Shown one piece after another: positions 23,204 to 50,396 of a stretch of DNA of 56,604 nt; the first letter of the stretch is position 1; the number at the start of each line of letters is the position of its first letter. The DNA is taken from assembly GCA_002254365.1 (NCBI GenBank), contig NIUT01000221.1:1-56604 (forward strand), given 5' to 3'. Origin of the DNA: Nitrospira sp. UW-LDO-01. GTDB lineage: Bacteria > Nitrospirota > Nitrospiria > Nitrospirales > Nitrospiraceae. The notes under the pieces are model-generated. The model saw nothing but the letters and a program-made list of their open reading frames with translations. It ran no database searches and was not told the origin of the DNA. Both the position numbers and the translations under genes were made by a program.

Positions 23204-23431
23204 ATGAAGACCATGCCAGTGACAGATTTTAAGGCACACGCGTTGAAAGTATTGGGAGAAGTCGCGGAAACACGAGAGTCGGTCCTGGTCACAAAACGAG
23301 GCAAGCCCCTCGCCGAAATTGTTCCCTTCGCCGGAAAATGCACGGCACCGGGCAGGTTGGCGGAGGCTCTGGTTTTTGAAGATGATATTGTGGCGCCTCT
23401 CGGCGAAGCTGAGTGGAACGTCTGCCGGTGA
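23204..23431 (+). CDS. Phd/YefM-family antitoxin (VapB-type)
   Basis: 75 residues of the Phd/YefM fold: MPVTDFKAHALKVLGEVAETRESVLVTKRGKPLAEIVPF is the classical N-terminal DNA-binding part (shown here only as the family pattern of its short pieces TDFKAH, LVTKRGKP and AEIVPF). The C-terminal tail is the toxin-binding part. The ATG at 23204 is preferred over a GTG nine bases earlier because GGGGAGAGGG is then at proper spacing. Its stop overlaps the toxin GTG by four bases. It neutralises the PIN toxin and probably represses its own promoter. Confidence 0.85.
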   Translation: MKTMPVTDFKAHALKVLGEVAETRESVLVTKRGKPLAEIVPFAGKCTAPGRLAEALVFEDDIVAPLGEAEWNVCR

Positions 23432-23826
23432 AGTACGTGCTGGATACGCATGTGTGGATCTGGTGGCAGATGAACCCGAAGAAGCTGTCCCCTCGCGTCC
23501 GCACCCTTCTCAATAATCCCGACCACTATGAGGAACTTCTCCTCTCAGTAATATCGGCGTGGGAGTTCAGTAAGTTGTTGGAGAAAAAGCGGATAGGGAT
23601 TTCCTGCGATCCTGAAGAATGGTTTCGTGTCGCACTCGAGATGCCCAAGCTCCGACTCGTGCCCCTCACTCCCACACTCAGCTACCGATCAACGACGCTG
23701 CCTCAGCCGTTTCACGGAGATCCAGCAGATCAAATCATTGTCGCGACCGCCAGGGAAGAGAATGCAACCGTGCTGACCAAGGACACCCTCATCCGGCAAT
23801 ACAAGCATGTGCGCGCACTGTGGTAA
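23428..23826 (+). CDS. vapC: PIN-domain toxin (VapC-type ribonuclease)
   Basis: About 132 residues. The acidic metal-binding residues of PIN nucleases are in place: Asp in LDTHVWIW near residue 6, Glu in SAWEFSKL, and Asp in GDPADQIIVATA, with a final TKDTLIRQY. The domain is of the type that pairs with Phd-like antitoxins. The GTG at 23428 overlaps the antitoxin stop (GTGA); a GTG five codons earlier is possible. Together they form a vapBC module. The module lies between intact hypD and a truncated hypD copy. Confidence 0.85.
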   Translation: MKYVLDTHVWIWWQMNPKKLSPRVRTLLNNPDHYEELLLSVISAWEFSKLLEKKRIGISCDPEEWFRVALEMPKLRLVPLTPTLSYRSTTLPQPFHGDPADQIIVATAREENATVLTKDTLIRQYKHVRALW

Positions 23827-23876
23827 ACCACGATGCGATTGCCTGCCTTCCACCTCAATGATCTGTTCCGCGCTCG

Positions 23877-24052
23877 CCCATCAACCAGCCTGAGATTTCT
23901 CGGCAACAGGCCATCGATCCCGAATCGCACAATCGAATAAGTCTGCCCCCACAGACTTCCATGATCGTCCAAAGCCGACGTACCGTCTGCTTGATCCGCT
24001 CAGCTAGCGCCGTGGCTACCGAGCGATTGCGAAATTCACCCACGTACTTCAT
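23877..24052 (-). pseudogene. hypD: Truncated, frameshifted second copy of the hypD 5' end
   Basis: Starting at the ATG at 24052, the translation MKYVGEFRNRSVATALAERI, followed by IKQTV and TIMEVCGG, matches HypD residues 1-36. At the CGG site one base is missing; in the next frame the match continues QTYSIVRFGIDGLLPRNL to about residue 59 and then ends. Across both pieces 46 of 59 residues equal the intact HypD. The rest of the gene is absent: the vapC stop follows about 50 bases further on. Its ATG overlaps the stop of the broken gene upstream (ATGA). It is a non-functional remnant. Confidence 0.85.
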
Positions 24053-24731
24053 GGCCGTGATTTCTCACAAATCCAAGCGCGAACCTCATGCATCAAATCC
24101 CAGAACACCAGAGGACCACCAAAATCCTCAAGCTCTAAAGGCTTACCATCCAAAGCGTTCAGATCTATTTGCAGGTCATGATACGCAAACCGTACCCGTA
24201 TCTGCTGAGCGTATGGGCCTCGCGCATTCCACGTTGGAACTTGAAGGTCGCGAGCAAATGCCGACCGAATCATGTAGACAAGGGTCCGCAATTGACCTCG
24301 GTCGGAACGATCATTCGGGTCGTTACTAATACCAGCGGCTTGCAGGGCAAGCTTCCATAGCCACCGCGGAAACTGCTAAAGCCTGTGAGTATAGATTCTC
24401 GCTGGCATGAACGAGATCGTCATAGGTGTGGAATGTAGACTGGCCAAGGCTTAGACTCCCGCCAGGCAAATGAATCAGCGTGTCGCAGTCTAGCAGTCTG
24501 CGGAAAAACTCAAATAGTGTGCTTCGACGGGCTCAGCATGAACGGAAACTTGCCATATTCAACGGCTGCCCCGTTCGTCCTGAGGCTCTCGAAGGATGAA
24601 CGGATGGGTTTTCCGCAACCTGCTAGGTCTTCCTTGTTGATTTTTCTCAGGGCCACATAGTTCATGACCTTGATGGCAAACTCCAAGGATAAGAGGGCTT
24701 GATCAATTCGATCAATAGGACTCCAGATCAT
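24049..24731 (-). pseudogene. Unknown gene broken by a MITE and a frameshift
   Basis: The N-terminus begins MIWSPIDRIDQALLSLEF and runs to KINKED, where the MITE (24490-24626) interrupts it. Removing the MITE plus one CTAG copy restores the frame as ...EDLDCDTLIHLPGGSLSLG. The frame then runs to LYSQALAVSAVA, where a further shift is needed to join PRWLWKLALQAAG and the long C-terminal part (RGQLRTLVYMIRSAFARDL, VRFAYHDLQIDLNALDGKP, FWDLMHEVRAWICEKSRP). The intact protein would be roughly 180 residues. I do not recognise its family. It follows the STAS-GHKL gene on the same strand. Confidence 0.65.
24490..24626. mobile_element. MITE-like element with CTAG target duplication
   Basis: A 137-base segment bounded by near-perfect terminal inverted repeats: the left end CTAGCAGTCTGCGGAAAA (24490-24507) and right end TTTTCCGCAACCTGCTAG (24609-24626) match at 16 of 18 positions. 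The outer CTAG on each side behaves as a target-site duplication, because removing the element with one copy restores the reading frame of the host gene. It codes for no protein. The interior holds REP-like wording (CTTCGACGGGCTCAGCATGA and CCGTTCGTCCTGAGGCTCTC). It is probably mobilised in trans by a transposase not in the window. Confidence 0.8.
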
Positions 24732-24749
24732 AGGTGACTTGACGTTCAG

Positions 24750-26009
24750 TTACGAGTCTGCGTCAGACAAACCAACCTTCATGCGCTGTTCTATGGCACG
24801 ATTAATAAGTGATTCAACCGTATCAATTGTATTTACCAAACGAACACGCTGCATAAATTGCATTGGGCCAAGCTGTAAGAAGAGCTTCCCAAATGCCTCA
24901 TCGGCAAAGCTACTGGAAATAACCGGCACACCACTGAAATCAACGTTGACCGCGCGAGAGTCAGTCATCTTTATTATATTGTGAAGCTTTTGTCTTACTG
25001 GCTTTCCTGAAACGCGACTACCAAAAGACATGCACTCATCACGCAGCATGAATGATACAGGACCCCCATCACGACCTTCATACGCAAACTCAACGTAGTC
25101 GGTCGGGTGGTACGTCACACCTTTGAATTGCAAGGCATCAGCGAGAAGTTTGGGATTGCTGAAGTCAATTGTTGCGGCAATCAAAGTCCCTGAATATGGA
25201 ATGGTTTGATTGGATATCGACATCTGCTGTCGCTTTGGGTTGTATTCCAATCGGGCATGCCCAGAGTCTATTTGGAAGTGGCCCTTTGACTTGCTGCAGA
25301 CCCTGTAACTCCCAAATAGCCCGTTACCTTGACCAATCCTGGCGTCCCTGGTGACTCCCTCTCGAATCGCCCAATCGAGAGCCTCCGTATCGCTGTGAAT
25401 CCCAGGGTGGCCAGGTTTTAAGGATGCTGGAATTCCTATGCCTGCGTCAGCAACAACGAACTGAACGCTTTTTGCCCTCTTCTGGAAGGTAGAGACTTGA
25501 ACGAGCCCACCAATCGGCGACTTAGCGTGGACGAGGACGTTGTCCGTAATCTCATTTATCGCCCATTCAAACGCAGCAAAATCAGTTCGTTCGAGATCAG
25601 GCAGGGCACCGAGCATAACGTTCACGATTCTGTTAACAGCAGCCCCCTGCTCTTCTGGCGACTGATACTGCGTGGCAGCAATTCTCGTGTGCCCCCTGAA
25701 ATTTGACTGATGGAACTGAAGCGGATCAAGAAAATGTGCCCAATTTGTATTCTTGAACAAGTTGGAAAGCGTTGACACTCGTGGAGGAACAAGGCTGAAC
25801 GTTACTCCAGACTTCCTGTATGCAGCCACTTGCGCGCATACGGAAAGCATAGAGTTCTGAAAGGCAGACGTACACGCCGACATATCCAGGATAACGTCAC
25901 TGTACCCTGTCACCCCAATACATTGATGAATTTGAGCAAGCAGATAGTGGAAATCTCGAAGATCACCTTCCACTGTAATTCGGTTACTTTCACGCGAAAT
26001 CTCAACCAT
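24750..26009 (-). CDS. GHKL ATPase flanked by STAS-like domains
   Basis: 419 residues in three parts. Residues 1-115 look STAS/anti-sigma-antagonist-like (DVILDMSACTSAFQNSMLSV). Residues about 130-260 are a GHKL (histidine-kinase-type) ATPase with N-box NEITDNVLVHA, G1 box DAGIGIP and G2 box GQGNGLFGSY. Residues about 300-400 match the STAS-like DUF4325 pattern (VNVDFSGVPVISSSFADEAFGKLF). It has no His phosphotransfer domain, so it is not a normal kinase. Such proteins suggest a partner-switch type regulator, or an ATPase of a defence or mobile system. Base composition looks more AT-rich than the flanking hydrogenase genes. Confidence 0.75.
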   Translation of the reverse strand: MVEISRESNRITVEGDLRDFHYLLAQIHQCIGVTGYSDVILDMSACTSAFQNSMLSVCAQVAAYRKSGVTFSLVPPRVSTLSNLFKNTNWAHFLDPLQFHQSNFRGHTRIAATQYQSPEEQGAAVNRIVNVMLGALPDLERTDFAAFEWAINEITDNVLVHAKSPIGGLVQVSTFQKRAKSVQFVVADAGIGIPASLKPGHPGIHSDTEALDWAIREGVTRDARIGQGNGLFGSYRVCSKSKGHFQIDSGHARLEYNPKRQQMSISNQTIPYSGTLIAATIDFSNPKLLADALQFKGVTYHPTDYVEFAYEGRDGGPVSFMLRDECMSFGSRVSGKPVRQKLHNIIKMTDSRAVNVDFSGVPVISSSFADEAFGKLFLQLGPMQFMQRVRLVNTIDTVESLINRAIEQRMKVGLSDADS

Positions 26010-26241
26010 TGATCATCCACATGAACGTACAACAATGTTTAGACCGATCTGCATATGAACTGAGTCCAGCGTTTTCTTCCCGTCTATCGTGCCATTGATG
26101 TTCCGAGCATAACGTCATAATTATGAGACTCAATGCAGCACAAATTAAGGGTCAGCGTGAAATTCAGCCAGGCGACCAGCCCGTTTCGGGCACCCCCCCG
26201 CTTCCCTTTCAGCCGCCTGCCGACTTGACGGCCAATGCCTT

Positions 26242-26535
26242 CTATGCTGCTGTGAGCCGAACCTTCACAACCTTGCCGAGCTTCACATGCTGCTTGGCGT
26301 GCCAGAGATCATGGTTGTACTGCATGGCAAGCCAACTCTCCGGAGAACGGCCCAGAGCCTTGGACAGACGGAGCGCCATTTCAGGGCTGATACGGCTCGT
26401 CCCCGTCAGAATGCGATTCAGCGTTGAAGCAGCCACACCGAGTTTTCCAGCCAGTTCACGGCCGCTGAGATTGTTGGGCCCCAGATAGACCTGGGTAATG
26501 AACTCACCGGGATGGGGAGGGTTATGCATAGTCAT
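26242..26535 (-). CDS. higA: HigA-type XRE antitoxin
   Basis: 97 residues. It starts MTMHNPPHPGEF after an AGGAGG; longer in-frame starts would overlap the toxin gene. The helix-turn-helix is GRELAGKLGVAASTLNRILTG followed by ALRLSKALGRSPESWLAMQ, the standard HigA/VapI pattern. It binds and silences the HigB toxin encoded directly upstream and probably autoregulates the operon. A short hairpin (GCCCG/CGGGC at 26179-26191) lies after the stop. Confidence 0.88.
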   Translation of the reverse strand: MTMHNPPHPGEFITQVYLGPNNLSGRELAGKLGVAASTLNRILTGTSRISPEMALRLSKALGRSPESWLAMQYNHDLWHAKQHVKLGKVVKVRLTAA

Positions 26536-26549
26536 TAGTGACAGTCCTC

Positions 26550-26813
26550 CTAATCTAGGACGGAAGCGTGTCCGTCTTTGAACGTGAAGGTTAAACGCCA
26601 GTTTCCATTGACCCACACAGACCATCGACCACGCTCCGACCCCTTCAAAGGATGTAGTCGGAATCCCGGAACATCCATGTCCTCAATGGACTGAGCCGTG
26701 TCCAAGGCTGCTAACAGCATGCGCAGACGTTTGGCGTGGTGCGGCTGGATACCCGCCGTGCTCCCCGACTCAAAGAACTTCTTCAGCCCCTTCTGCCGGA
26801 TTGATTGGATCAC
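26550..26813 (-). CDS. higB: HigB-type RelE-family toxin
   Basis: 87 residues of the RelE fold: IRQKGLKKFFESGST, the long helix AKRLRMLLAALD, FRLHPLKGSERGRWSVWVNGNWRLTFTFKDG. The Arg and aromatic residues at the ends of the last strands fit mRNA interferases. It ends at ...ASVLD, shorter than many HigB proteins, which continue to a DYH tail. It lies 14 bases before higA, toxin first, the normal HigBA order. Confidence 0.85.
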   Translation of the reverse strand: MIQSIRQKGLKKFFESGSTAGIQPHHAKRLRMLLAALDTAQSIEDMDVPGFRLHPLKGSERGRWSVWVNGNWRLTFTFKDGHASVLD

Positions 26814-26869
26814 ACGCCAAAGGTAGCATGTTGCGCACTACGCAACAAGGTCTAACGGCCACCCTGCGA

Positions 26870-27154
26870 CTAACCAGGGCACGCGCGTTTTGGCCGCGTC
26901 CGAGTTGAGCGCGAGGGACCAGATCGTGAGCGATGTTCCGCATAGGCATCGAGCAGCCGTCGGATCATGCACTGGTGCTACGTGTGGTGTTTTCGAGCCT
27001 CACCCTTAAAGAAGTCGACGCTTCTCTTGCTCAATGCAATGGTGACCTTGATCCCTTCGTCCCGAAAGACAAGCTCTTCGGGCCGAGGAAGGAAGTCAGG
27101 AATGACTCTAGGATCTCCGAGCGGTTCATCGGCATATTTAATTTTCTTGCTCAT
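26870..27154 (-). pseudogene. CopG/BrnA-type antitoxin with internal nonsense codon
   Basis: From the ATG at 27154 the translation begins MSKKIKYADEPLGDP, continues RVIPDFLPRPEELVF and VTIALSKRSVDFFKGEARKHHT, then meets TAG at 26980-26978. After the stop the same frame continues HQCMIRRLLDAYAEH, the expected C-terminal ribbon-helix-helix part (family members usually read TQYQxMIRRLLD here). A CAG to TAG change explains the break. No toxin gene is adjacent on the upstream side. It may also be expressed as a 58-residue truncated protein, but the second helix would be lost. Confidence 0.7.
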
Positions 27155-27193
27155 GGATAAACTTGTTCTCTAGCCCTACACTTTTTGGCCTAC

Positions 27194-27643
27194 TCATATC
27201 TTCCGGTTTCGAATGATCAGACCGAGCACCACCGGAAACGTCATGACATAAAACAAGAGGAGTCCTCCAACAAACAGCTGTCCGCGAACTTGCATGGGGT
27301 CCGCCACGCTATCATGCCCCTGCATCCAGAAATGTCTGGTCATAAGGTCGCAGGCAAACCCTGCAATAATCAGCGCATACCAGAACCGCCATCGTCGTGA
27401 GGTATAGAGCGCCTGCTCTCGTCGGTGAATCAGGAACACTTGGGCTAGGATCGCTGCGAGGCCGAGATACTCTGTCCAGGCGGGAATCCCACGGGCCCCC
27501 GTCAGTAAGAGTAAGATAAGGATCGCAACGAATACTAGAATGGACCCGAACAGAAATCCTCGTCGCGATTCCGAGAGACTCGCACCAACCCCGTCCAATC
27601 CATCCCCCGAATGGCTGTTCTCTTGTTCGAGACGCTGGATCAT
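27194..27643 (-). CDS. Four-helix membrane protein of unknown function
   Basis: About 149 residues with a polar N-terminal 30 residues and four membrane segments (GFLFGSILVFVAILILLLL, LGLAAILAQVFLIH, WYALIIAGFACDL, FVGGLLLFYVMTFPVVLGLI). It ends in a basic IIRNRKI tail. I recognise no family. The ATG at 27643 is favoured by AGGTGAGG upstream. It is co-directional with the lipoprotein and hypC genes, and may be the last gene of the hydrogenase operon before the accessory island. Confidence 0.6.
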   Translation of the reverse strand: MIQRLEQENSHSGDGLDGVGASLSESRRGFLFGSILVFVAILILLLLTGARGIPAWTEYLGLAAILAQVFLIHRREQALYTSRRWRFWYALIIAGFACDLMTRHFWMQGHDSVADPMQVRGQLFVGGLLLFYVMTFPVVLGLIIRNRKI

Positions 27644-27693
27644 TGTCCTCACCTGGTCTTCCGCTACGGAGGAGTGGGCTCTGGCCAGCCTGC

Positions 27694-28080
27694 CTACTCC
27701 ACCACTTCAGCCTTATCGGACTCGTTCAGAAGATAGAGGGTTTCGTTCTTGATAAAGAATCGATGCGGTTTCTCACTTCTATACTCGCCCATTAAATTCT
27801 TGGCCGTAATCCCCACGTGTACAATGTAACCAAACTCCGGAGGTTTTCTCCTACCTGAGAGATAGGCATAGCCTTTCTGTGGCTCTTTTCTGATCCGAAT
27901 ACGAGCCGGGAACGGTTCAAGCAGCGACTGCTGCACAAGATCTTGTATGGCCTTCCGATAGAGTGAAGTTTCCGGAACTGTCCCATAGTCAGCACTCGCG
28001 ATTTGTTCAGGCGTCACCGGTGTAACACACCCCGATATGAGCACGAGCAGCACAAGGACAATTCTGAGTTGAGCATTCAA
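27694..28080 (-). CDS. Small lipoprotein of unknown function
   Basis: 128 residues from a TTG start. It has a clear lipobox: LRIVLVLLVLISGC with Cys18. The mature part is mixed and soluble (AIQDLVQQSLLEPFPARIRI, EFGYIVHVGITAKNLMGEY, HRFFIKNETLYLLN) with no recognised domain. It is probably anchored to the outer or inner membrane facing the periplasm. It sits 87 bases downstream of hypC on the same strand. Confidence 0.6.
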   Translation of the reverse strand: MNAQLRIVLVLLVLISGCVTPVTPEQIASADYGTVPETSLYRKAIQDLVQQSLLEPFPARIRIRKEPQKGYAYLSGRRKPPEFGYIVHVGITAKNLMGEYRSEKPHRFFIKNETLYLLNESDKAEVVE

Positions 28081-28167
28081 CTGGGAACTCTCACTGGATG
28101 GTGTGGGCTACTTCTACAATGCAGGGAGTCGTTATTTTAGGATCCCCGCTCACACACTGTCCAGCAT

Positions 28168-28416
28168 TCACCCCCTGGTTGGGTCTGGCGACTGTGAGGC
28201 CGTCAACTCGGCATAGGTCTCCAATGTTCGTCGTGCCGCTTCCTCGTCCAGTTTGCTGATCGCAAAACCGACATGGACGATGACATAGTCCCCCACGTTT
28301 GCTTCCGGCACCAATGCCAACGCGACGGATTTCGTGACTCCCCCGAATGACACAGTCGCGGTGCGAAGCGGATCATCCTCAATGTTCTGAACCTGTCCCG
28401 GAACCGCGAGACACAT
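28168..28416 (-). CDS. hypC: Hydrogenase maturation chaperone HypC
   Basis: 82 residues beginning MCLAVPGQV, the invariant N-terminus in which Cys2 carries the Fe(CN)2CO unit. The following OB-fold strands (TATVSFGGVTKSVALALVP, VGDYVIVHVGFAISKLDEEAA) are typical. HypC passes the iron unit from HypD to the large subunit. It starts one base after the hypF stop, so the two are cotranscribed and probably coupled. In most operons hypD follows directly; here it does not. Confidence 0.95.
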   Translation of the reverse strand: MCLAVPGQVQNIEDDPLRTATVSFGGVTKSVALALVPEANVGDYVIVHVGFAISKLDEEAARRTLETYAELTASQSPDPTRG

Positions 28417-28417
28417 C

Positions 28418-30808
28418 TTATGCGTTACCTTCCTTGCCAGCTAAGCGTTGATGAGCCGCCACCACCGCCTGTCCCAACGATAATCCGCCATCATTGGGCG
28501 GAACCAACGAGTGGCTGTAGACCGTAAATCCCGCCTCCTCCAAGCGACCTCTCACCAATGACAGAAGCAGCCGATTCTGAAAACAGCCGCCGGTCAGGAC
28601 AACGCGAGGAAGGCCTGCCGCGTGAGCCACTCGAACCGTCGCATCGGCAAGACTCACATGAAATTGCGCGGCAATCAGTTCAGGCCGGTGGCCTCTGCCA
28701 AGGTCATCAAGCATAGGGCTGATCATAGGTCGCCAGTCGACCATCCATTTTGTACCTGAATTCTCACTCCGCACTAGATCGATCGGATAGCTTTGTGCCC
28801 TCCCTCCGCCTGCCTCCCACTCTCGCTCTGCAGCAAACTGAACCGCCATCGCTGCCTGGCCTTCAAAAGAGGCCTGGGAACAGAGACCGGTGAGCGAGGC
28901 CACGGCATCGAATAGTCGTCCCAAACTTGTTGTCCATGGTGATGCAATGCCAGATCTAAGCAAGATCGCCAACTGTTGACGACGATCACCCGGCTCCTTC
29001 CAAGAAGGAAAGTCGTACCCCAGCATCTCTTCTCTCATCAATTCCCACAGGACTGCTGCAGCAGACCGACTTGGATCTCGCATCGCTGCTTCTCCACCAG
29101 GCAAGCGAAACGGTCGGAGATGGGCAAACCGGCTGGAGCCGAGATAACTTGCAACCAAGAATTCTCCGCCCCACACTTGCCCGTCCGTTCCATACCCAGC
29201 TCCGTCCCAGGCGATGCCGAGAACCTCACCGTTGAGCTTATGCTCTGCCATGCATGAGGCCACGTGAGCATGGTGATGCTGAACGGGGATCAACGGGACT
29301 GTGAGACTCGCAGCCAGTTGTCGTGCAAAGCTGGTCGAACGATAGTCAGGATGCAGATCACAAGCAATAGCCTGAGGCTCGATTTGTAAGAGCCGCTGGA
29401 GATCCTCAATGGCTTGGCGGAAAGCCTGGTCTGCCTCAACAGTGGAAAGGTCACCGAGGTGCTGGCTCAACACGACACGATCGCCTGTCAGGAGCGCAAC
29501 CGTATTCTTGAGATGTCCGCCCACGGCAAGGATCGGACCTTGCGCCGTTCCAGCTGATGAGTTATCGCTCCAGCGGATCGCCTGTGGCACGTAACCCCGC
29601 GCCCGCCGAAGGATCAACCGATCAGTTTTTCGCTGGTCCGCCTCGCCCCTTTCATGGCGCTCCGGCATACGTTTAACCACCAACACCACCGAATCATCGA
29701 CCGGCCTTGCGATAGGCCTGTCATGCACGAGCAGTGCGTCGGCAATCCCCTTCAGTCGAGCCAGCGCCTCATGTTCGTCGATCACGATTGGTTCTTCGGA
29801 TCGGTTGCCGCTCGTCGCGACCATGGGACGCTGTAGGGACGCCATCAAGAGATGATGGAGGGGCGTCGTCGGCACCATCACACCAAGATAGGGGTTGCCC
29901 GGTGCCACGGCATCGGCGAGAACTGCATCTCGCCGCTTGCGGGCTAAGACGATCGGTGCTTGCGGCGAGCAGAGGAGCGCTTCCTCGTCTGACGACAACA
30001 GGCAATAGTCTCTGATCGCGTCAATGGACGGGAACAGCACGGCGAAGGGTTTGTCCACTCTCTGTTTGCGATTGCGCAACCTCCGGACGGCATCCTCTGA
30101 TTTGGCATCGACCCAGAGTTGAAATCCACCCAGCCCTTTCACCGCGACGACAAGTCCTTGTTCGAGCAAAGTCGCTGCCTGTTGGAAGGCTGCTTCATCA
30201 TTCGTGGTTTCGTGGCCCTGCTCATCCCACAAACATAGGCTTGGACCGCAGATCAGACAGGCAATTGGTTCCGCATGAAAACGCCTGTCTGATTCGGAGG
30301 AGTACTCGGTGCGACAGTTAGAACAGAGTTCGAACCCAGCCATGGTCGTATTGGACCGTTCGTACGGAATCGCTGTGAGCAGGCTATAGCGCGGGCCACA
30401 TTGTGTGCAGGTGAGGAATGGATACCGGAAGCGACGATCATCTGGATCGGCGAGTTCGCGAAGACAGTCGGCGCATGTAGCAAGGTCCGGTGGAATGACA
30501 AGGGTTCGTTCACCTGGTTCGGCACTCGTGCCGATTGCAAAGCTCGCGTCGCCACGTGCCGGAATGAGGCTGGTTCTTATTGCCTCGATAGAAGCCGCGG
30601 CAGGCGCATCAACTTGCAGCCGTTCGAGAAATGTCTCGATCGCTTTCGCGGTCCCTTCCACCTCGATCACGACACCGTTGCTGCTGTTCCGAACCCATCC
30701 GGTCAGCTCCAACGCACGAGCCAGTCGGTAGACACAGGGGCGGAACCCCACCCCTTGCACGGTTCCTCGCACATTGACTTGCACACGCTGAGTGAAAGTC
30801 TTTCTCAC
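28418..30808 (-). CDS. hypF: Carbamoyltransferase HypF
   Basis: 796 residues, the usual length. Domains in order: acylphosphatase-like (VRGTVQGVGFRPCVYRLA, residues about 8-95), two zinc fingers with CxxC pairs (CADCLREL, CTQCGPRY, CSNCRTEY, CLICGPSL; about 110-190), a YrdC-like domain (VVAVKGLGGFQLWVDAKS, about 210-400), and a Kae1/TobZ-like carbamoyltransferase domain (HLGDLSTVEAD, VQHHHAHVASCMAEH, IAWDGAGYGTDGQVWGGEF, VVLTGGCFQNRLL). It uses carbamoyl phosphate and ATP to carbamoylate the HypE C-terminal Cys. It overlaps the hypA stop by four bases. Confidence 0.95.
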   Translation of the reverse strand: MRKTFTQRVQVNVRGTVQGVGFRPCVYRLARALELTGWVRNSSNGVVIEVEGTAKAIETFLERLQVDAPAAASIEAIRTSLIPARGDASFAIGTSAEPGERTLVIPPDLATCADCLRELADPDDRRFRYPFLTCTQCGPRYSLLTAIPYERSNTTMAGFELCSNCRTEYSSESDRRFHAEPIACLICGPSLCLWDEQGHETTNDEAAFQQAATLLEQGLVVAVKGLGGFQLWVDAKSEDAVRRLRNRKQRVDKPFAVLFPSIDAIRDYCLLSSDEEALLCSPQAPIVLARKRRDAVLADAVAPGNPYLGVMVPTTPLHHLLMASLQRPMVATSGNRSEEPIVIDEHEALARLKGIADALLVHDRPIARPVDDSVVLVVKRMPERHERGEADQRKTDRLILRRARGYVPQAIRWSDNSSAGTAQGPILAVGGHLKNTVALLTGDRVVLSQHLGDLSTVEADQAFRQAIEDLQRLLQIEPQAIACDLHPDYRSTSFARQLAASLTVPLIPVQHHHAHVASCMAEHKLNGEVLGIAWDGAGYGTDGQVWGGEFLVASYLGSSRFAHLRPFRLPGGEAAMRDPSRSAAAVLWELMREEMLGYDFPSWKEPGDRRQQLAILLRSGIASPWTTSLGRLFDAVASLTGLCSQASFEGQAAMAVQFAAEREWEAGGGRAQSYPIDLVRSENSGTKWMVDWRPMISPMLDDLGRGHRPELIAAQFHVSLADATVRVAHAAGLPRVVLTGGCFQNRLLLSLVRGRLEEAGFTVYSHSLVPPNDGGLSLGQAVVAAHQRLAGKEGNA

Positions 30809-40447: not shown

Positions 40448-42207
<1,760 letters not shown>

Positions 42208-42211
<4 letters not shown>

Positions 42212-43221: not shown

Positions 43222-43227
43222 CAGCTG

Positions 43228-44220
43228 ATGGCTCATATAGCTGACATGACTAAAACGACATACAGAGAAGCCGTTCGAGCCGGACTCCGCGAGGCATTGC
43301 TGAATGACCCGCGCGTGTTTCTCATGGGTGAAGATGTCGGCAAGTATGGCGGTACCTATGCCTGCAGCAAAGGGTTCCTAGAAGAATTTGGGCCGGAACG
43401 TATCCGTGACACGCCGTTGTCCGAATCCACCTTCGTCGGTGCAGGTATCGGGGCCGCTCTTGGCGGCATGAGGCCGATCGTGGAAGTGATGACGGTGAAT
43501 TTCAGCCTTCTGGCCCTCGACCAGATCGTGAATAACGCCGCGACGATTCGTCACATGTCCGGAGGACAGTTCAGTATTCCACTCGTCGTGCGCATGGCCA
43601 CCGGGGCCGGTCGCCAAGTCGCCGCCCAACATTCCCATAGTCTGGAAGGCTGGTATGCCCACATCCCCGGCATCAAAGTCCTCACGCCCGCGACCGTGAC
43701 CGATGCGAAAGGCATGTTGCTGACGGCTTTGAAGGAACCGGACCCGGTCTTCATTTTCGAACATGCCTATCTGTACCCCATGGAAGGGGAGTTCGCCGAG
43801 GGGGCGCTCCCAGTCGACATTGCCAGGGCGGCTGTGCGCCGACAAGGAAAGGACGTGAGCCTGATCACGTTTGGCGGCTCGCTCTGGAAGTCCCTGCAAG
43901 CCGCCGAGACGCTGGCTGGAGAAGGTATCGAAGCAGAAGTCGTCGATCTTCGCGTGTTGCGTCCCCTCGACCAGGCGACGATCCTCGCGTCCGTTAAGAA
44001 AACCCATCGAGCCGTCGTCATCGACGAAGGGTGGCGGACGGGAAGTTTCGCCGCAGAGATCAGCGCGCAGATCATGGAAGGAGGCTTCTATGATCTTGAT
44101 GGTCCGGTGGCTCGTGTGTGCAGCGCCGAAGTGCCGATCCCCTACCCGAAACATCTGGAAAACGCGGCGCTTCCGCAGCCAGAGCAGATTGTCAGCGCTG
44201 TGCGTAGCCTCATGAGATGA
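43228..44220 (+). CDS. pdhB: Pyruvate dehydrogenase E1 beta-type subunit
   Basis: 330 residues with [32 protein letters not shown] (first part), [31 protein letters not shown], and the C-terminal transketolase domain [32 protein letters not shown]. It forms the heterotetramer with E1alpha, seven bases downstream of it. Followed by a 97-base gap with a hairpin before the E2 gene. Specific substrate is not decided by sequence; gene order fits pyruvate or acetoin dehydrogenase. Confidence 0.93.
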
Positions 44221-44269
44221 TGAATGATCACTCCTGCTGTTCCTCCCTCATCACGGATCACATTTCAGG

Positions 44270-44308
44270 GTTCGACGGGCTCACCGTCCCGAGTTCAATC
44301 GAGGGACG
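44270..44308 (+). repeat. REP-like/hairpin segment before the E2 gene
   Basis: GTTCGACGGGCTCA is the same wording as part of the MITE at 24490 and of the REP family in cusA. Directly after it CGTCCC (44285-44290) and GGGACG (44303-44308) form a six-pair hairpin. It lies 19 bases upstream of the E2 start. Confidence 0.35.
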
Positions 44309-44326
44309 CCTCACGAGGTGTTCGTC

Positions 44327-45493
44327 ATGGCTGACTTTGTGATGCCGACATTGGGCTCGGACATGACCGAAGGCACGTTGGTCGAATGGAAAAAGAAGGT
44401 CGGTGATCGGGTGACCAAAGGTGAGATCATCGCGGAAGTGGATACTGAAAAATCCGCGATTGAAGTCGAGTCCTTCTTTACCGGTATCATTCAACAGTTG
44501 ATTACAAAGCCCGGCGATACGATTCCAGTGGGCACGGTCATGGCCCTCATCAGCGAAGAGGGGAAACCGGCTGAAGAGGTCGAAGTAAAAGTCGAAGCCA
44601 GGCCCGTGAAAGAGTCAACGCCTTCCCCTGTGAGTGAGCCGATTGTCTCCTCACCGACCGAGCCGGGTCGATTACGCATATCACCTGCCGCCAAACAACT
44701 CGCAGCGGAACTTCGTGTCGATCCTTCGACTCTGAGGGGAACCGGTCCAGGCGGCGCCATCACGCTCAGCGATATCCATACCGCGGCCGCAGCGCCGACA
44801 AATGAACAACCCATCTCGTCAGCAGACCGCCAAGCGAAGATGCGGGAAATCATCGCCGCCGCCATGGCGCGATCGAAGCGGGAGATTCCCCATTATTACC
44901 TCAGCACGGCAATCGATATGGGTCGAGCCATGACCTGGCTCAAGGAAGAAAACCTTAAACGATCCGTGACGGATCGACTCCTCTACGGCGTATTGTTGAT
45001 CAAGGCTGTGGCCTTGGCGCTTCGGCAGGTACCGGAATTGAACGCCCTCTGGAAGGGAAGTGCAGCTGTCCAGAGCCCCGACATCCACATCGGCGTGGCA
45101 GTGTCACTTCGGCAAGGAGGCCTCGTTGCGCCAGCCCTTCATCATGCCGACAAGCAGAGTCTTGGCGAATTGATGACACGTTTTCAAGACGTGGTGAAAC
45201 GGGCCCGCGCTGGCACCTTGCGCAGTTCGGAATTCTCCGATCCGACGATCACGGTCACGAGCCTCGGAGACCAGGGAGTCGAGACGGTGTTCGGGGTCAT
45301 CTATCCGCCGCAGGTTGCTTTAGTCGGTTTCGGAAAAGTCGTGGAACGCCCGTGGATCGTCGATAGCCACGTGGTCTCAAGGCCGGTCGTGACGGCGAGC
45401 CTCTCCGCAGACCATCGTGTCACGGACGGCCACCGTGGAGCGGTATTTCTTTCAGCTATCGATCGCTTGTTACAGGAGCCAGCGCAACTATGA
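44327..45493 (+). CDS. pdhC: Dihydrolipoamide acyltransferase (E2)
   Basis: About 388 residues from ATG 44327 (GAGG upstream). One lipoyl domain at 1-75 with the lipoyl Lys in [13 protein letters not shown]; a flexible Pro/Glu linker; a peripheral E3/E1-binding domain [22 protein letters not shown] (about 115-150); and a catalytic domain ending [19 protein letters not shown] with the active His and Asp. No E3 gene (dihydrolipoamide dehydrogenase) is present in the window. It overlaps the ACP gene by four bases. Confidence 0.92.
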
Positions 45494-45750
45494 ACAGGCC
45501 TCTCGCACCGGATGAAACCAGACAGACGGTCCTTCGCCTCCTTGGCGAGATCGCGCCGGAAGCGGATCTGTCCCTCGTGAAGGCGGATGTCAGTTTCCGT
45601 GATCAGCTAGATATCGATTCGATGGACTTTTTAAATTTTGTAGTCTCGATCCACAAGACCTTTGGGGTGGAGATCCGGGAAGCCGACTATCCGAAGTACA
45701 GCACACTCAACGGCTGCGTGGAGGAACTATCGGCTAATCGAACGAGATGA
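45490..45750 (+). CDS. Acyl carrier protein
   Basis: 86 residues of the ACP fold with the phosphopantetheine Ser44 in [13 protein letters not shown]. Acidic, with the four-helix pattern [37 protein letters not shown]. It sits between the E2 gene and the DsbD-like gene, with ATGA overlaps at both ends, so it is translated with the dehydrogenase complex. No synthase, ligase or phosphopantetheinyl transferase is next to it. Its acyl partner is unknown. Confidence 0.9.
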
Positions 45751-46946
45751 CCCCCTCTTCCCTTTCTCGCTCGCGAACCGTTGTGTTCCGCCCCCAACGA
45801 GGCATCGGCGAGTACGTCGGCACCATTAGCACATTCATCGTCTTCCTCGTGCTTGTGCTGGGAAGCGGGGTACAGCTCTCAGCTGGCGAGCCCATCCCAG
45901 GTGTTGAAGTCTTCGTCCGCGCCGGTTGTCCTCATTGCGAAGCCGCCAAGATTTTTCTCGCTGAACTTCAGCATGAACAGCCATCGCTTCGGATTGCCAT
46001 CTATGACATCGCGAAAGACTCAGCCGCACGCCAACGGCTTGCGTCACTGGCGGCTGAGCGAGGCATAGCCGACTTCGGCGTCCCTGCCTTTCTGATCGGT
46101 AGGGAACTGATGATCGGGTTCCGCTCGGCGGACACGACCGGAGCAGAGATTCGGGCCTGGCTCGACCGGCGCACGCAGGGTACTGCCGCACCGCCCGTAG
46201 TAGAAGGTATCAAGACCGAGTGGTTCGGCGAGCTTCGATCGAGAGACCTCGGCCTTCCACTGTTCACCATCGCGATAGGATTGCTGGATGGATTCAATCC
46301 TTGCGCGATGTGGGTCCTGCTGTTTCTGTTGTCGTTGCTCGTCAATCTCCAAGACCGGAGAAAGATGGCCCTCATTGCGGGAACTTTCGTCCTCGTCAGC
46401 GGGTTGATTTATTTTGCCTTCATGGCGGCTTGGCTGAATATGTTTCTGCTGATCGGCCTCTCGCGCAGCGTTCAGATCGCGCTAGGAGGCCTCGCCTTGT
46501 TTGTGGGAGTCGTCAATATCAAAGACTTCTTTGCCCTCCACCGTGGGATCTCATTGAGCATTCCTGAATCAGCCAAGCCAGGGTTCTACGCCAGGGTCAG
46601 AGGAATCCTCCAAGCTGAGCACCTCACCGGAGCGATGGTGGGAATTGTCGTCCTCGCCGGGCTCGTCAACATGATCGAGCTGCTTTGCACCGCTGGATTC
46701 CCCGCACTCTATACTCAGATCCTCACGATGCACCAGTTGCCAACCTGGGAATACTATGGTTATCTCGGGTTGTATAACGTCGCCTATATTCTGGATGATA
46801 GCCTCATGGTGACGATTGCGGTGCTCACATTGAGCCGAAGAAAGCTATCGCATTATGCCGGACGTTGGTTGAAACTGACTGCTGGAGCGGTGATGACGAG
46901 CCTCGGCATCGTGTTGATCGTGAAGCCCGAATGGCTGGCGCTTTAG
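45747..46946 (+). CDS. Glutaredoxin domain fused to DsbD/CcdA-like membrane domain
   Basis: 399 residues. After a signal/anchor helix (STFIVFLVLVLGSGV, about 28-42) is a glutaredoxin/thioredoxin-like domain with CPHC at 61-64 and GVPAFLIG near 112. From about 170 there are six membrane helices with the DsbD/CcdA-type signature GFNPCAMWVLLFLLSLLVNL. It would carry reducing power across the membrane to a periplasmic thioredoxin fold. The fusion order (redox domain before helices) is seen in some family members. Connected to ACP by ATGA. Confidence 0.85.
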   Translation: MTPSSLSRSRTVVFRPQRGIGEYVGTISTFIVFLVLVLGSGVQLSAGEPIPGVEVFVRAGCPHCEAAKIFLAELQHEQPSLRIAIYDIAKDSAARQRLASLAAERGIADFGVPAFLIGRELMIGFRSADTTGAEIRAWLDRRTQGTAAPPVVEGIKTEWFGELRSRDLGLPLFTIAIGLLDGFNPCAMWVLLFLLSLLVNLQDRRKMALIAGTFVLVSGLIYFAFMAAWLNMFLLIGLSRSVQIALGGLALFVGVVNIKDFFALHRGISLSIPESAKPGFYARVRGILQAEHLTGAMVGIVVLAGLVNMIELLCTAGFPALYTQILTMHQLPTWEYYGYLGLYNVAYILDDSLMVTIAVLTLSRRKLSHYAGRWLKLTAGAVMTSLGIVLIVKPEWLAL

Positions 46947-46958
46947 TATGGACGTCCA

Positions 46959-49685
46959 ATGAGATCAGTTCGTCCCCTGTACATCCCTCCTCTGGAGGCT
47001 GATCACGCTGAATCCGGCTCGCTCATCATGCGGGATGGATCGACCGCCGCCATCCGACCGGCCGAACCGACCGATGCGACACTGTTGCAACAGTTCGTCA
47101 GCCGCTTGTCACCCGAGTCCAGACGCCACCGGTTCTTTTCGGAGAGCCTACCTCCGGTCGAGGCCGTCGCCAGTTTGTGTCATTCTTCAGATCCCTGTTC
47201 CCAGTTCACATTGATCGTGACACGAATGTGGGAAGGGCAGCAGCACATTATTGCTGCCGGGTCCTACTGGGCGAAGGATGCACAAACAGCCGAGGTGGCA
47301 ATGGCCGTGGATGACGGCTTCCATGGGAAAGGGCTGGGAACGCTGCTGCTCGAACGACTGGCCATCGTCGCCATCCGACACAATTATTCTCACCTGTGGG
47401 CTGTCACTCACGCAGACAATCTGGCTATGCGCGAAGTGTTTCGAGAATCGGGGTTTACATCGCATGAAGCATATGAAGGCGACGACATGGAAGTGGAACT
47501 GTCGTTGATTCCCACGGAAACGACCGTCACTCGCGCCGAGGTCCGAGAACGGCTTGCCACCACCGCGTCGCTCCGACCGTTTTTCCACCCACGCTCTGTG
47601 GCACTGATCGGTGCCTCGCGCGATCCCAAAAGTATCGGCTATCGACTTCTCGATGCACTTCGAGCCAATGAATTTCAGGGCACCATCTATCCGGTCAATC
47701 CAAATGCTTCGGAGATCGCTGGAGTCCCGGTCTATCACTCAGTTCATGCGATTCCTGAACCCATCGATCTCGCCGTTATCGCCGTACCACGGCAAGACGT
47801 CTTATCCGTCGTCGATGAGTGTGCGGGTAAAGATGTTCGGGTATTGGTGGTCATTACGGCAGGCTTTGCCGAAGTAGGAGCTGCCGGAGTGGCACTCCAG
47901 AAACAGCTTCTTGAAAAGATCCGGCAGTACGGGATGCGCATGGTCGGGCCTAATTGCTTTGGGATCTTGAACACAGCCCCCGATGTACAATTGAACGCGA
48001 CCTTCACCACGCTGTTTCCCCCACGAGGTCGTGCCGCTATGTCGTCACAGAGCGGCGCCATCGGGATTGCGACTCTTGCCGGCGCACGGCGGTTCCACTT
48101 GGGTATCTCGTCTTTCGTGAGTGTGGGAAACAAGGCCGATGTGTCCACCAACGATCTGTTGCAGTATTGGGAGGAAGACTCATCCACGAATGTCATCCTG
48201 CTCTATGTCGAGTCCCTCGGCAATCCTCGCAAATTCGCCCGCATCGCGCGGCGCGTGAGCCGTCGCAAACCGATCGTTGCGGTCAAAGCGGGACGATCAC
48301 AATCAGGGCGACGGGCGGCCAGTTCTCACACCGCGGCTCTTGCAGCCAGCGATGTGGCCGTCGACGCGTTGTTCCATCAAGCCGGTGTCATTCGCGCGGA
48401 ATCGCTCGAAGACTTGTTGGCGCTGGCCGCCGGTCTCTCGAATCAACCCTTCCCACTAGGCCGGCGGGTGGGAATTATTACGAATGCAGGAGGGCCGGCC
48501 GTTCTCTGTACTGATGCGTGCGAGGAATACGAATTAGTGGTTCCGGAATTATCCGCCTCAACCAAGTCAACGCTTGCTTCCTTTCTCCCGTTGGCCGCCG
48601 CTCTGAGCAATCCCGTCGATTTGATTGCTTCGGCGACCGCGGATCAGTACGCCAAGGCGATCGAAACACTTCTCTCGGCGAATGAGGTCGACGCATTGAT
48701 CATTCTCTATATGGCTGTGACGGTGACAGACACAACCGATATTGCTCGTGGCATCATGACCGGAATCGAAAGCGGTCGGAACGCGGGTGCCAAAACCAAG
48801 CCGGTGCTCATCGGCTGGATGGCTGAAGGCGATCGGAACCGTACGTTTCAGTTTCAAGAAGAAACCATCCCCGCCTACCACTTGCCGGAGACTCCGGCCC
48901 TGGTTCTCAGTAAAGCGGCGACCTATGCGGAGTGGCGACAACAGCCCGCTGGCATGGTTCCCGACTTCGACGACCTCGATCTTGCCGCCGCACGAACGAC
49001 TTGTGCCACTGCATTAGCGCAACGCGGCTCCGGCTGGTTGACGACCGAAGAAACTCGGCACGTTCTGAGAGCGATGAGGCTTCCGGTTCAGGCCGGTGGA
49101 GTGGCGAAGACAGCTGATGAGGCCGCCGCCTTGGCGAGCCAAGTCACCTACCCAGTCGTCGTCAAACTGGCCTCGCATCAGATCGTGCACAAAACCGAGA
49201 TCGACGGGGTGCACCTGAATCTCAAGGACGAGCAGGCGGTTCGAGAAGCATTCGAGTCAATCAGAACAAAACTCGTTGAGTGCAGTCAACTCGACGCCAT
49301 GGAAGGCGTTCTTGTGCAGCCGATGGTAACCGGCGGCGTGGAGGTCATGATCGGAGTCACAGATGATGCCCTATTCGGTCCGTTGATTGCCTTCGGCCTC
49401 GGCGGGATTCACGTCGAGATACTTGGCGATGTGCAGTTCCGCATCACTCCGCTTACGAACTTTGATGCGGCCGATATGATCCGGAAAATCAAAGGCTACC
49501 GCTTGCTTACCGGCTATCGAGGACATCCATCGGCCGATCTGGAGGCCCTTGAAGAAACCCTGCTGCGGGTGTCTCGTCTTGTCGAGGAAGTTCCTGAGAT
49601 CAGCGAACTGGACCTTAATCCGATCTTCGCACTCCCTCCAGGCCACGGCTGTCGTATCGTGGATGCAAGGATTCGAATAGGATAG
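46959..49685 (+). CDS. Pat-like GNAT / ADP-forming acyl-CoA synthetase fusion
   Basis: 908 residues. An N-terminal GNAT domain (about 25-180) has the acetyl-CoA loop FHGKGLGTLLLERLA. Then follow the CoA-binding domain (PRSVALIGASRDPKSIGY, about 210-330), the ligase CoA domain (FVSVGNKADVSTNDLLQYW, about 350-470, with SSHTAALA and His457) and a C-terminal ATP-grasp domain (about 680-905, VVVKLASHQIVHKTEIDGV and FGLGGIHVEILGDVQFRITPL). Family Pat/AcuA proteins acetylate and inactivate AMP-forming acyl-CoA synthetases; here the GNAT is N-terminal. The retained His hints that an ADP-forming synthetase activity may be possible. A remnant of a copy of its 3' end lies at 50478. Confidence 0.85.
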   Translation: MRSVRPLYIPPLEADHAESGSLIMRDGSTAAIRPAEPTDATLLQQFVSRLSPESRRHRFFSESLPPVEAVASLCHSSDPCSQFTLIVTRMWEGQQHIIAAGSYWAKDAQTAEVAMAVDDGFHGKGLGTLLLERLAIVAIRHNYSHLWAVTHADNLAMREVFRESGFTSHEAYEGDDMEVELSLIPTETTVTRAEVRERLATTASLRPFFHPRSVALIGASRDPKSIGYRLLDALRANEFQGTIYPVNPNASEIAGVPVYHSVHAIPEPIDLAVIAVPRQDVLSVVDECAGKDVRVLVVITAGFAEVGAAGVALQKQLLEKIRQYGMRMVGPNCFGILNTAPDVQLNATFTTLFPPRGRAAMSSQSGAIGIATLAGARRFHLGISSFVSVGNKADVSTNDLLQYWEEDSSTNVILLYVESLGNPRKFARIARRVSRRKPIVAVKAGRSQSGRRAASSHTAALAASDVAVDALFHQAGVIRAESLEDLLALAAGLSNQPFPLGRRVGIITNAGGPAVLCTDACEEYELVVPELSASTKSTLASFLPLAAALSNPVDLIASATADQYAKAIETLLSANEVDALIILYMAVTVTDTTDIARGIMTGIESGRNAGAKTKPVLIGWMAEGDRNRTFQFQEETIPAYHLPETPALVLSKAATYAEWRQQPAGMVPDFDDLDLAAARTTCATALAQRGSGWLTTEETRHVLRAMRLPVQAGGVAKTADEAAALASQVTYPVVVKLASHQIVHKTEIDGVHLNLKDEQAVREAFESIRTKLVECSQLDAMEGVLVQPMVTGGVEVMIGVTDDALFGPLIAFGLGGIHVEILGDVQFRITPLTNFDAADMIRKIKGYRLLTGYRGHPSADLEALEETLLRVSRLVEEVPEISELDLNPIFALPPGHGCRIVDARIRIG

Positions 49686-49735
49686 GGCAGCCCTTTACTC
49701 TCAATTCAACCAACTGTGTCGTGCTGGAAGCTTGG

Positions 49736-50128
49736 TCAGGCTGAAGTGCGAAGGGGCTCAAGGCGGTGTATTTCGCTTGCCTTCGATCCCTGCATTGCGT
49801 GCCAGAGGTCCCAGTCCACCTGTAACCCCAACCAGAAGTCAGCTGACATCCCCAGGACCTGCGCCAACCGAAGCGCCGTATCAGATGTGATCGCGCGCTT
49901 CCCTCGGATGATTTCATTGAGCCGAGGAAAAGAGATGCCCAGGCGAATCGCCAGTTCCGATTGGGTTATGCCCAGAGGCTTGACGAACTCCTCCAGCAGC
50001 ATTTCGCCCGGACGTGTGGGTGGCCGCCGACGAGGCAGCCGACGTCCGACAAGGGCTCGTGAACGTCCCTGCGAGACGGTGGTCCCTGGCCTCTTAGTGA
50101 TAATCCGTGATCTCAACCTCGTAGACAT
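49736..50128 (-). CDS. higA: HigA-type XRE antitoxin
   Basis: 130 residues. The start at 50128 (GGGAGGCTGGAG before the ATG) overlaps the end of the toxin gene by 35 bases. The N-terminal 40 residues are basic and Arg-rich, then the family core PTRPGEMLLEEFVKPLG, helix-turn-helix QSELAIRLGISFPRLNEIIRG and ALRLAQVLGMSADFWLGLQ. Represses and neutralises the upstream HigB. Minus-strand module inside otherwise plus-strand territory. Confidence 0.88.
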   Translation of the reverse strand: MSTRLRSRIITKRPGTTVSQGRSRALVGRRLPRRRPPTRPGEMLLEEFVKPLGITQSELAIRLGISFPRLNEIIRGKRAITSDTALRLAQVLGMSADFWLGLQVDWDLWHAMQGSKASEIHRLEPLRTSA

Positions 50129-50396
50129 CTCCAGCCTCCCATCGAAAACAGACTCGGTATTGATCGTTGATTCTAATGCTGTGCTGCCCGTTCCGGTCGG
50201 CCCGCAATCGTTCGAGGCGATTTCCTGGTGGAACCGAAAGCTCAGCAAGATCCTTCACGCGATTAATCTGGTCAAGCTTCCTTCTGGCCACGTTCCACAG
50301 ATTGCGGGGACAGGTTTTTCTGGCTATCTCGGAATCGATGCCGTCAAATATTGCCTCGGTGCCTCGATTTCCGAACGAACGTATCACGGGCTCCAT
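50094..50396 (-). CDS. higB: HigB-type RelE-family toxin
   Basis: About 100 residues (start at ATG 50396; a TTG 27 bases earlier is possible). RelE fold with FGNRGTEAIFDGIDS, RRKLDQINRVKDLAEL, NRLERLRADRNGQHSIRINDQYRVCFRW and the DYH end, which carries catalytic/RNA-binding residues. It precedes higA as usual. The module sits between the intact pat-like gene and a decayed copy of its 3' end. Confidence 0.88.
   Translation of the reverse strand: MEPVIRSFGNRGTEAIFDGIDSEIARKTCPRNLWNVARRKLDQINRVKDLAELSVPPGNRLERLRADRNGQHSIRINDQYRVCFRWEAGDVYEVEITDYH

Follow-up and report, generated by a model that had tools for sequence, protein, structure and literature searches.

Toxin-antitoxin modules bracketed by duplicated gene ends in Nitrospira suggest integrase-free mobile cassettes

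Why would two unrelated toxin-antitoxin (TA) modules each stand between an intact gene and a truncated copy of one end of that gene? The question is raised by a stretch of 56,604 nucleotides from Nitrospira sp. UW-LDO-01 (contig NIUT01000221.1, positions 1 to 56,604, assembly GCA_002254365.1), hereafter the window, in which a vapBC module adjoins hypD and a higBA module adjoins an ADP-forming acyl-CoA synthetase-like gene (ACD). The genome holding the window is designated G000, other G numbers denote genomes of the genus Nitrospira, and L numbers denote loci. Comparison of the window with itself by blastn recovered the hypD 5' end on both sides of the first module (186 nt, 78.0% identity, E = 1e-38) and the ACD 3' end on both sides of the second (161 nt, 72.7%, E = 1e-25; Table 1). 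These were the only strong partial self-repeats, the remaining matches having E values of about 1e-5 or weaker. Pfam identified a PhdYeFM antitoxin and a PIN toxin between the hypD copies (23204-23826, forward strand) and a HigB-like toxin with an HTH_3 antitoxin between the ACD copies (49736-50399, reverse strand). Both modules consist of adjacent small toxin and antitoxin genes with their family domains, and TA activity is predicted for them. At both sites the adjoining gene has remained intact, whereas the distant copy shows truncation and decay: the match of the hypD fragment is split into two pieces in different frames, and the ACD fragment contains two TAG codons. The self-comparison and the Pfam assignments thus bear out the layout that a preliminary description had noticed, namely gene, TA module and gene fragment, with a 5' end at one site and a 3' end at the other. 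A third bracket was found in the same genome (G000:C85, L193), where a PIN toxin is accompanied by a copied 3' end from a spermine-synthase-like gene (158 nt, 88%). Self-blastn revealed no bracket at the HigBA pair at 26242-26813 or at the HTH_3 and BrnA-like genes at 54250-54818 of the window, leaving two of its four TA-like loci bracketed.

The account that is favoured here, with modest confidence as a whole, is that both modules are probably small cassettes of about 0.7-1 kb that lack an integrase and insert at the end of a gene with a long direct duplication, in the order gene, cassette, gene-end fragment, the fragment serving as a portable homology arm. No integrase was seen in the inserts of 0.7-1 kb that were inspected.

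The distribution of the hypD insertion across the genus provided the first line of evidence. A HypD match was found in 51 of the 79 genus genomes, and the VapC of the window (92-100% identical) in seven, each time beside hypD. The hypD fragment was present in six of these seven carriers, that of G028 being only 67 nt long, and in one of the 44 other genomes with a HypD match, namely G053, where no intact hypD was found; some HypD matches among the 44 ended at contig ends, so a few fragments could be missed. The Fisher test on fragment presence was performed with 0/44 non-carriers, a count that becomes 1/44 with G053 included. Two VapBC-free genomes displayed an unoccupied site. The sequence that lies beyond the fragment in G000 abuts intact hypD directly in G004 and lies approximately 280 nt upstream of it in G062 (loci L013 and L011), and the duplicated segment occurs there as a single copy. 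These sites without an extra copy indicate that the insert comprises the cassette plus one additional hypD end.

Third-position identity between carriers was 71-83% in VapC, compared with 47-66% in the rest of hypD and 43-71% in hypE; between G000 and G028, for example, it was 83% in VapC against 49.5%. Because the third positions of VapC are far more alike than those of the adjoining genes, the comparison indicates that the VapBC cassette moves horizontally between species, and faster than its neighbors. Upstream flanks showed no relationship in 14 of 15 carrier pairs; on that side, the fragment itself would have to supply the homology for ordinary recombination. An eighth genome, G075, carries a frameshifted VapBC relative (L123 7775-8400, 84-88%) away from hypD and near a HigA-like gene, and no flanking repeat was found at this locus.

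The HigBA module presented a similar picture at ACD and extended it to other target genes. A HigB at least 84% identical was found at ACD in seven genomes, six of which have a direct ACD bracket (G000, G032, G045, G052, G061, and G066); in G020, a truncated HigB occurs in a nested arrangement. Across six hosts HigB is 84-93% identical to that of the window, including G045, whose ACD (part of it on the contig) is only 57% identical. More distant HigB relatives (72% and 76%) were located in G067 and G018 beside a cyclophilin gene, with 3'-end copies of 143 nt (93%) and 267 nt (88%), respectively. Only the HigBA core, from 49733 to approximately 50430, is common to the ACD and cyclophilin sites, the homology beginning at 49719-49736 and stopping at 50424-50433. 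At L297, HigBA stands at the 3' end of a methyltransferase gene with a copy of about 231 nt (80%), and a degenerate cyclophilin relic of 56 residues (52%, E = 2e-11) lies between HigB and the new fragment. The simplest reading is that this cassette jumped from a cyclophilin site, carrying part of its old target with it.

The recurrence of one junction in scattered species might be attributed to a single ancient insertion per site, inherited vertically and lost in most species, since the repeats would permit clean loss. This history is very improbable. It was disfavored by the third-position identities, VapBC being far more alike than hypD and hypE between the same genomes, and it conflicts with the HigB similarity that extends to G045 and its divergent ACD, and with the presence of the same HigBA core at unrelated genes.

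The gene-side edge of the repeat was close to the stop-codon end in six cases (L197 +11, L230 +8, L191 +1, L297 0, L159 -1, and L124 -4 nt) and wider in L193 (+35 nt), L266 (+66 nt), and L235 (-18 nt). Duplications of a 5' end were seen at hypD and in two orthologous cases, L203 and L207. L197 appeared to be young, with a repeat of 246 nt at 98% identity. No consistent microhomology was apparent at the duplication edges in four cases read by eye. In four further genomes (G009, G036, G072, and G015; L078, L077, L076, and L070), the sole ACD match was a decayed 3' end next to a ccdA-like gene, indicating that the fragment can persist after gene and cassette have both been lost.

Comparison of the fragments with intact genes provided insights into how the cassettes might have spread. 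Five VapBC-flanked hypD fragments were aligned with 31 intact hypD genes and divided into thirds of 60 nt, the G028 fragment being too short. Bases seen in none of the 31 intact genes numbered 4, 6, and 22 per third from the outside to the inside, and all five columns in which such a base was common to at least two fragments from different species fell in the inner third, a sharing that was tested against a crude null. Identity of the outer third to the best intact hypD was 97% in G042, 97% in G016, 95% in G017, 92% in G034, and 87% in the window, while the inner third reached 80-83% in all five, where the best matches of intact genes average 88%. In the window, the truncated hypD copy includes two cassette-specific bases common to other carriers. 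In G017, the outer 90 nt of the fragment are G016/G078-like (92%) and the start of the intact hypD is G009-like (93%). A tree of the 186-nt hypD copies was weakly supported except for the group of G016, G078, and the G017 fragment (support 1.0), and was relied on for that group only.

A similar mosaic was observed at ACD. In the outer part of the G045 fragment, identity to the ACD of the same genome is 99%, while the inner part reaches 75% with the G032 fragment and no more than 65% with any intact gene; the outer part of the G032 fragment is 93% identical to its own gene. Three inner bases of the window fragment are common to the G032 and G045 fragments and absent from every intact copy. Judged from these alignments, several fragments are chimeras, host-like on the outside and cassette-like beside the toxin genes, the two fragments of the window weakly so. 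The mosaic fragments and the discordant gene ends point to crossovers inside the duplicated segment, and homologous recombination with the duplicated gene end as the arm is the best supported route of spread between species. It is in this respect, as a means of spread, that the homology-mediated insertion put forward in the preliminary description finds support in several genomes.

The same data bear on two other origins of the repeats. Strict insertion with long target duplication, in which a host flank of about 100-300 bp is copied, the two copies start out native and identical, and all later divergence is decay of the spare one, fits the layout and lengths described for restriction-modification (RM) systems. 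It would account for the young L197 repeat and for the plain decay with which the two window fragments are compatible, and cassettes at new genes bear new duplications, which could not derive from an old arm. It is nevertheless unlikely, given that the fragments of G016, G017, G032, G042, and G045 are mosaic, that the G017 fragment matches G016/G078 and not its own gene, and that the six edges close to the stop-codon end are unexpected from random target cuts, the wider ones of L193, L266, and L235 notwithstanding. One-sided homology-facilitated illegitimate recombination, whereby foreign linear DNA is joined through gene homology on one side and at random on the other, accounts for one homologous and one abrupt edge. 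It has been reported from competent bacteria and, with low efficiency, from E. coli, and has been proposed for Vibrio effector-immunity gene arrays (PMC5361080). As the whole explanation it is doubtful, if a serious contender: a common inner junction recurs at the same gene in several species, which argues for one founding junction spread by ordinary recombination and not for repeated random joining. It could have been the founding step.

A systematic count was carried out on 30 loci of each of five toxin families from 38 genomes that were at least 95% complete. A locus was scored as bracketed when direct repeats of at least 80 nt (E <= 1e-6), separated by a gap of at most 2 kb, lay one on each side of the toxin. 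A length filter for contig-clipped loci retained 123 of 150 TA loci and 29 of 30 control loci. Brackets were found at 37 of the 123 TA loci (HigB 6/21, PIN 7/27, ParE 7/23, BrnT 11/26, and PemK 6/26) and in 11 of 360 random 3.3-kb windows, an approximately 10-fold difference (Fisher p = 2e-15), the random windows coming 40/60 from a single genome (G063). The non-toxin family AhpC-TSA, used as a control, had no locus bracketed by direct repeats (0/29). These raw counts retain L195, L174, L184, L151/L154/L223, and L162/L165; the bracket of L184 is weak (62%), and L184 and L389 fall out at 70% identity. When orthologues were collapsed and at least 70% identity was demanded, 27 of 80 distinct TA sites and 4 of 360 windows remained, a difference of about 30-fold, with the list of positives transferred by hand from the raw count. 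An automatic rule assigned 14 of the 37 bracketed loci to the gene-end type, among which L174 (doubtful gene call) and L195 (a paralogous gene pair) were questionable on inspection. By site, the gene-end type accounted for 11 of 80 TA sites and 3 of 360 windows, although one of these windows in turn represents a TA-like insertion. The TA loci L151, L154, and L223, as well as L162 and L165, are bracketed by recurring repeats that are similar between genomes and are not obviously gene ends.

The position of the repeats was equally informative. In 34 of the 38 loci with a repeat pair, the toxin lies inside the best one, where random placement would give 14.8, and 24 of the 34 bracket gaps measure 0.67-1.01 kb, the size of a TA operon. 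Inverted repeats bracketed none of the 123 TA loci. A first pass had already yielded 20 of 71 bracketed TA loci against 3 of 220 half-overlapping control windows, one of these three (L235) being a DUF4160/DUF2442 pair at the end of a UDP-GlcNAc epimerase gene. In 1.2 Mb picked regardless of TA genes and scanned for repeats of at least 60 nt and at least 70% identity with gaps of 250-2500 nt, 16 repeat pairs were found. Five had gaps of 0.7-1.5 kb, of which three enclose TA-like genes (DUF4160/DUF2442, an HTH_3 gene, and BrnT), one involves a 699-nt repeat read as paralogous genes, and one had no TA gene recognized by eye.

In agreement with the preliminary description, the bracketing of TA modules by direct repeats is not chance; the systematic count, in which a lack of enrichment would have refuted the idea, showed enrichment. 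That TA genes merely lie in variable regions full of repeats is hardly credible, even with 11 of the random windows bracketed, 7 of them at less than 70% identity; one of the 11, L266, itself represents a TA-like insertion at the end of an arginase-family gene. Chance was rejected by the self-comparison, the random windows, the AhpC-TSA control, the placement test, and the inverted-repeat control alike.

Relatives of HigB were also collected from GTDB. Flanks of 1.5 kb on both sides were available for 49 of 80 loci, and 13 of the 49 were bracketed, five of them Nitrospira loci (L293, L294, L295, L297, and L319). Three outside Nitrospira (L306, L307, and L311) lie between array-like repeats and were set aside, and the bracket of L322 is a duplicated gene, named by eye as transposase-like; with such cases included, this count is not proof of generality outside the genus. 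A possible case outside Nitrospira is L309 (2748-3895) in a Desulfococcaceae metagenome-assembled genome, in which two 173-nt copies (91%), located at the start region of a gene for a PIF1-like helicase, enclose HigBA. TA cassettes abound in chromosomal integrons, and the array-like repeats would agree with the brackets being attC sites of integron gene cassettes. For the Nitrospira brackets this is extremely improbable: at hypD, ACD, and the remaining gene-end sites, the repeats consist of coding sequence from the ends of different host genes, and they are mostly unlike between sites, the repeats of 24 loci and the two of the window forming only five similar pairs (no search was made for attC folds or for an integrase).

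The layout was not restricted to toxins. A quinone-oxidoreductase-like gene is bracketed by ACD 3'-end copies in four genomes (G055, G020, G051, and G065), alone in G065 and together with a membrane-protein gene in the other three, and in G020 this cassette is nested with HigBA. Two other genes are bracketed by ACD-end copies in G066; the gene names in these ACD-end cassettes were given by eye and not by Pfam. In G017, hypC is followed by a cupin gene and then by a partial hypC copy (L064 5988-7067). Repeat identities of 69-83% in the named cases showed no visible difference from those of TA repeats. The process thus seems to serve small cassettes generally, with TA pairs over-represented, possibly owing to their punishing loss through the flanking repeats. 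The general route for TA integration or maintenance suggested in the preliminary description is accordingly upheld as an enrichment, and not as something exclusive to TA modules, as the genes at ACD and hypC demonstrate.

The layout, the unoccupied sites without an extra copy, the horizontal movement of VapBC, and the chimeric fragments of several genomes, all as read from sequence, underlie the proposed mechanism. In the favored account of integrase-free cassettes, the truncated copy would act as a portable homology arm. The arm, or a Campbell-style circle of cassette and gene end, would recombine with the same gene in a new species, and the cassette would insert whether or not the outer flank is related; an equivalent outcome would be reached if a linear piece underwent a double crossover. 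Cells from which recombination between the repeats removes the cassette would be penalized by the TA pair, and TA cassettes would persist as the spare copy decays. The first duplication at a new gene may arise by aberrant excision with the gene end, by repair copying, by one-sided illegitimate recombination, or by insertion with long target duplication. Since the duplicated piece reaches a gene terminus, one complete gene can remain, and gene ends may be favored for this reason, as no fragment other than a terminal one has this effect.

Several observations weigh against this account. At the level of the count, 23 of the 37 bracketing repeats failed the gene-end rule, being intergenic or recurring repeats, so the partial copy of a neighboring gene envisaged in the preliminary description applies to the gene-end loci and not to these. 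The non-toxin cassettes indicate that addiction is not required. G031 has VapBC at hypD with no detectable fragment, no intact ACD was matched in G061, and in G063 the ACD fragment lies about 2.3 kb past HigB with a HigA-like remnant in between. The inner third is less conserved among intact hypD genes as well (mean 79.6%, compared with 85.4% in the outer third), which explains part of the contrast between inner and outer parts. The outer end of the window hypD fragment, at 87%, is below the best match of every intact gene, the hypD fragment of G034 and the ACD fragment of G066 are not clearly chimeric, and the inner part of the window ACD fragment is closest to intact genes and not to other fragments. 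G016 is the reverse of G017, with a native-looking start of the intact hypD and a non-native outer part of the fragment. The ACD of G045 turns type-A-like over its final 240 nt, the pattern expected of an imported end, but that of G035 does likewise, and HigBA was not matched there at this level. Finally, the proposed circle, excision, and transfer steps are derived from sequence comparison.

A broader extension, held tentatively and a little short of an even call, is that a general class of integrase-free mobile cassettes, mostly TA pairs, spreads by means of a captured host-gene end as homology arm, the arm targeting the same gene elsewhere, repairing it on entry, and being renewed on a jump to a new gene. 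If true, this class would make up from about a seventh (gene-end type, 11/80) to a third (27/80) of the surveyed Nitrospira TA sites, and possibly many TA sites elsewhere. To our knowledge, it is an open question by what route solitary chromosomal TA modules move in the absence of transposons, phages, or plasmids. The footprint of movement is legible here as an unoccupied site, a duplication, a chimeric arm, and a relic of a former target, and the question thereby becomes accessible to counting and to a simple laboratory assay. A decayed gene-end copy past a small module may also serve as a practical marker that flags a mobile insertion, and such copies may explain apparent partial gene duplications in annotation.

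Table 1. Coordinates of features at the two bracketed sites; positions refer to the window unless a locus is named
Feature	Position	Strand	Evidence
Intact hypD (hydrogenase maturation), target gene 1	21895..23004	-	Pfam HypD, E 8e-151
Resident copy of duplicated segment: hypD 5' end and ~10 nt upstream of ATG	22829..23014	-	self-blastn
Cassette-borne spacer, antitoxin start to hypD	23015..23203		69-87% identity among seven carriers
VapB-like (Phd/YefM) antitoxin, predicted	23204..23431	+	PhdYeFM_antitox, E 3e-9
VapC (PIN) toxin, predicted	23413..23826	+	PIN, E 2e-16; 92-96% amino acid identity in six other genomes
Short cassette-borne gap, VapC to fragment	23827..23877		found in G042 (96%), G034, G016, G031; not in G017, G028
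Truncated hypD 5' copy	23878..24062	-	outer two thirds 87-88%, inner third 80% to best intact hypD
Original upstream flank of hypD	24063..24500		abuts intact hypD in VapBC-free G004; close upstream of it in G062
Intact GNAT and ADP-forming acyl-CoA synthetase-like gene (ACD), 908 amino acids, target gene 2	46959..49685	+	ATP-grasp_5, E 1e-77; Succ_CoA_lig, E 2e-54
Resident copy of duplicated ACD 3' end	49518..49678	+	self-blastn
HigBA cassette core, common to cassettes at other genes	49733..50430	-	homology with cyclophilin-site cassettes
HigA-like antitoxin, predicted	49736..50095	-	HTH_3, E 6e-12
HigB-like toxin, predicted	50094..50399	-	HigB-like_toxin, E 2e-15
Truncated ACD 3' copy	50469..50629	+	self-blastn
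Quinone-oxidoreductase-like cassettes	L068 8122-10747, L069 9522-11866, L074 8284-12298, L139 9099-10675

A 419-amino-acid protein encoded at 24750-26009, adjoining the hypD fragment, has counterparts of 93-95% identity in G034, G004, and G053. For hypF in this cluster, identity is lower, at approximately 74-75%, an indication that the segment at 24750-26009 moves as well. Just past the ACD fragment, a transposase gene (start near 50853, rest to 54093), presumably ISL3-like, is apparently interrupted by a gene pair at 51154-53120 that we take to be an IS21-like istA/istB pair. At 54250-54818, the HigA-like HTH_3 gene adjoins the BrnA-like antitoxin gene with no obvious toxin partner for either, and relatives of these genes stand beyond ACD in many of the loci compared. 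The stretch from ACD to the cytochrome/hemerythrin-like genes looks like a TA hotspot.

The preliminary description knew of no named mechanism with this signature, a statement that needs revision. The closest named process is the insertion with long target duplication of RM systems, reportedly the subject of Nobusato et al. 2000 and Furuta et al. 2010. RM systems are described as inserting with a long, variable target duplication on the order of 100 bp (PMC3874152, PMC3031569), and the argument for RM mobility is said to be extendable to TA systems (PMC3031569). Among the matches listed in a literature search that left most subscription journals outside, no paper on TA modules bracketed by gene-end duplications was found. 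The likeness to RM insertion lies in a small two-gene addiction-type unit without transposase or integrase, directly flanked by direct repeats of at least about 100 bp, in a duplication of the order of 100 bp, and in presence or absence between related genomes with a single-copy unoccupied site (G004 and G062). The Nitrospira cassettes differ in their cargo, which consists of type II TA modules (Phd-PIN and HigBA by Pfam) and some metabolic genes in place of RM genes, in a duplication that often ends at a gene terminus, in several cross-species chimeric fragments, and in one cassette with a relic of an earlier target gene. A native origin of both copies is contradicted in G017, G045, and G032, where the fragments are not purely of the own gene, whereas the fragments of the window would fit it.

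Integrative elements of the tRNA and guaA type insert at the 3' end of a gene and restore it, similarly leaving an intact gene on one side and a displaced gene end on the other. In contrast to these, the inspected inserts of 0.7-1 kb revealed no integrase, and their repeats are mostly 80-350 nt long in place of a short core. Homology-facilitated illegitimate recombination likewise joins short foreign DNA through homology at one junction and without it at the other. The present cases differ in the duplication of a gene end and in the same junction occurring across several species, a pattern suggestive of one founding event and subsequent spread by ordinary homologous recombination. A further parallel is the sequential displacement of effector-immunity units of the Vibrio type VI secretion system (T6SS), which are swapped by homology anchors and leave remnants of earlier occupants (PMC5361080); the remnants there are immunity genes within T6SS clusters, whereas those described here are the ends of unrelated host genes.

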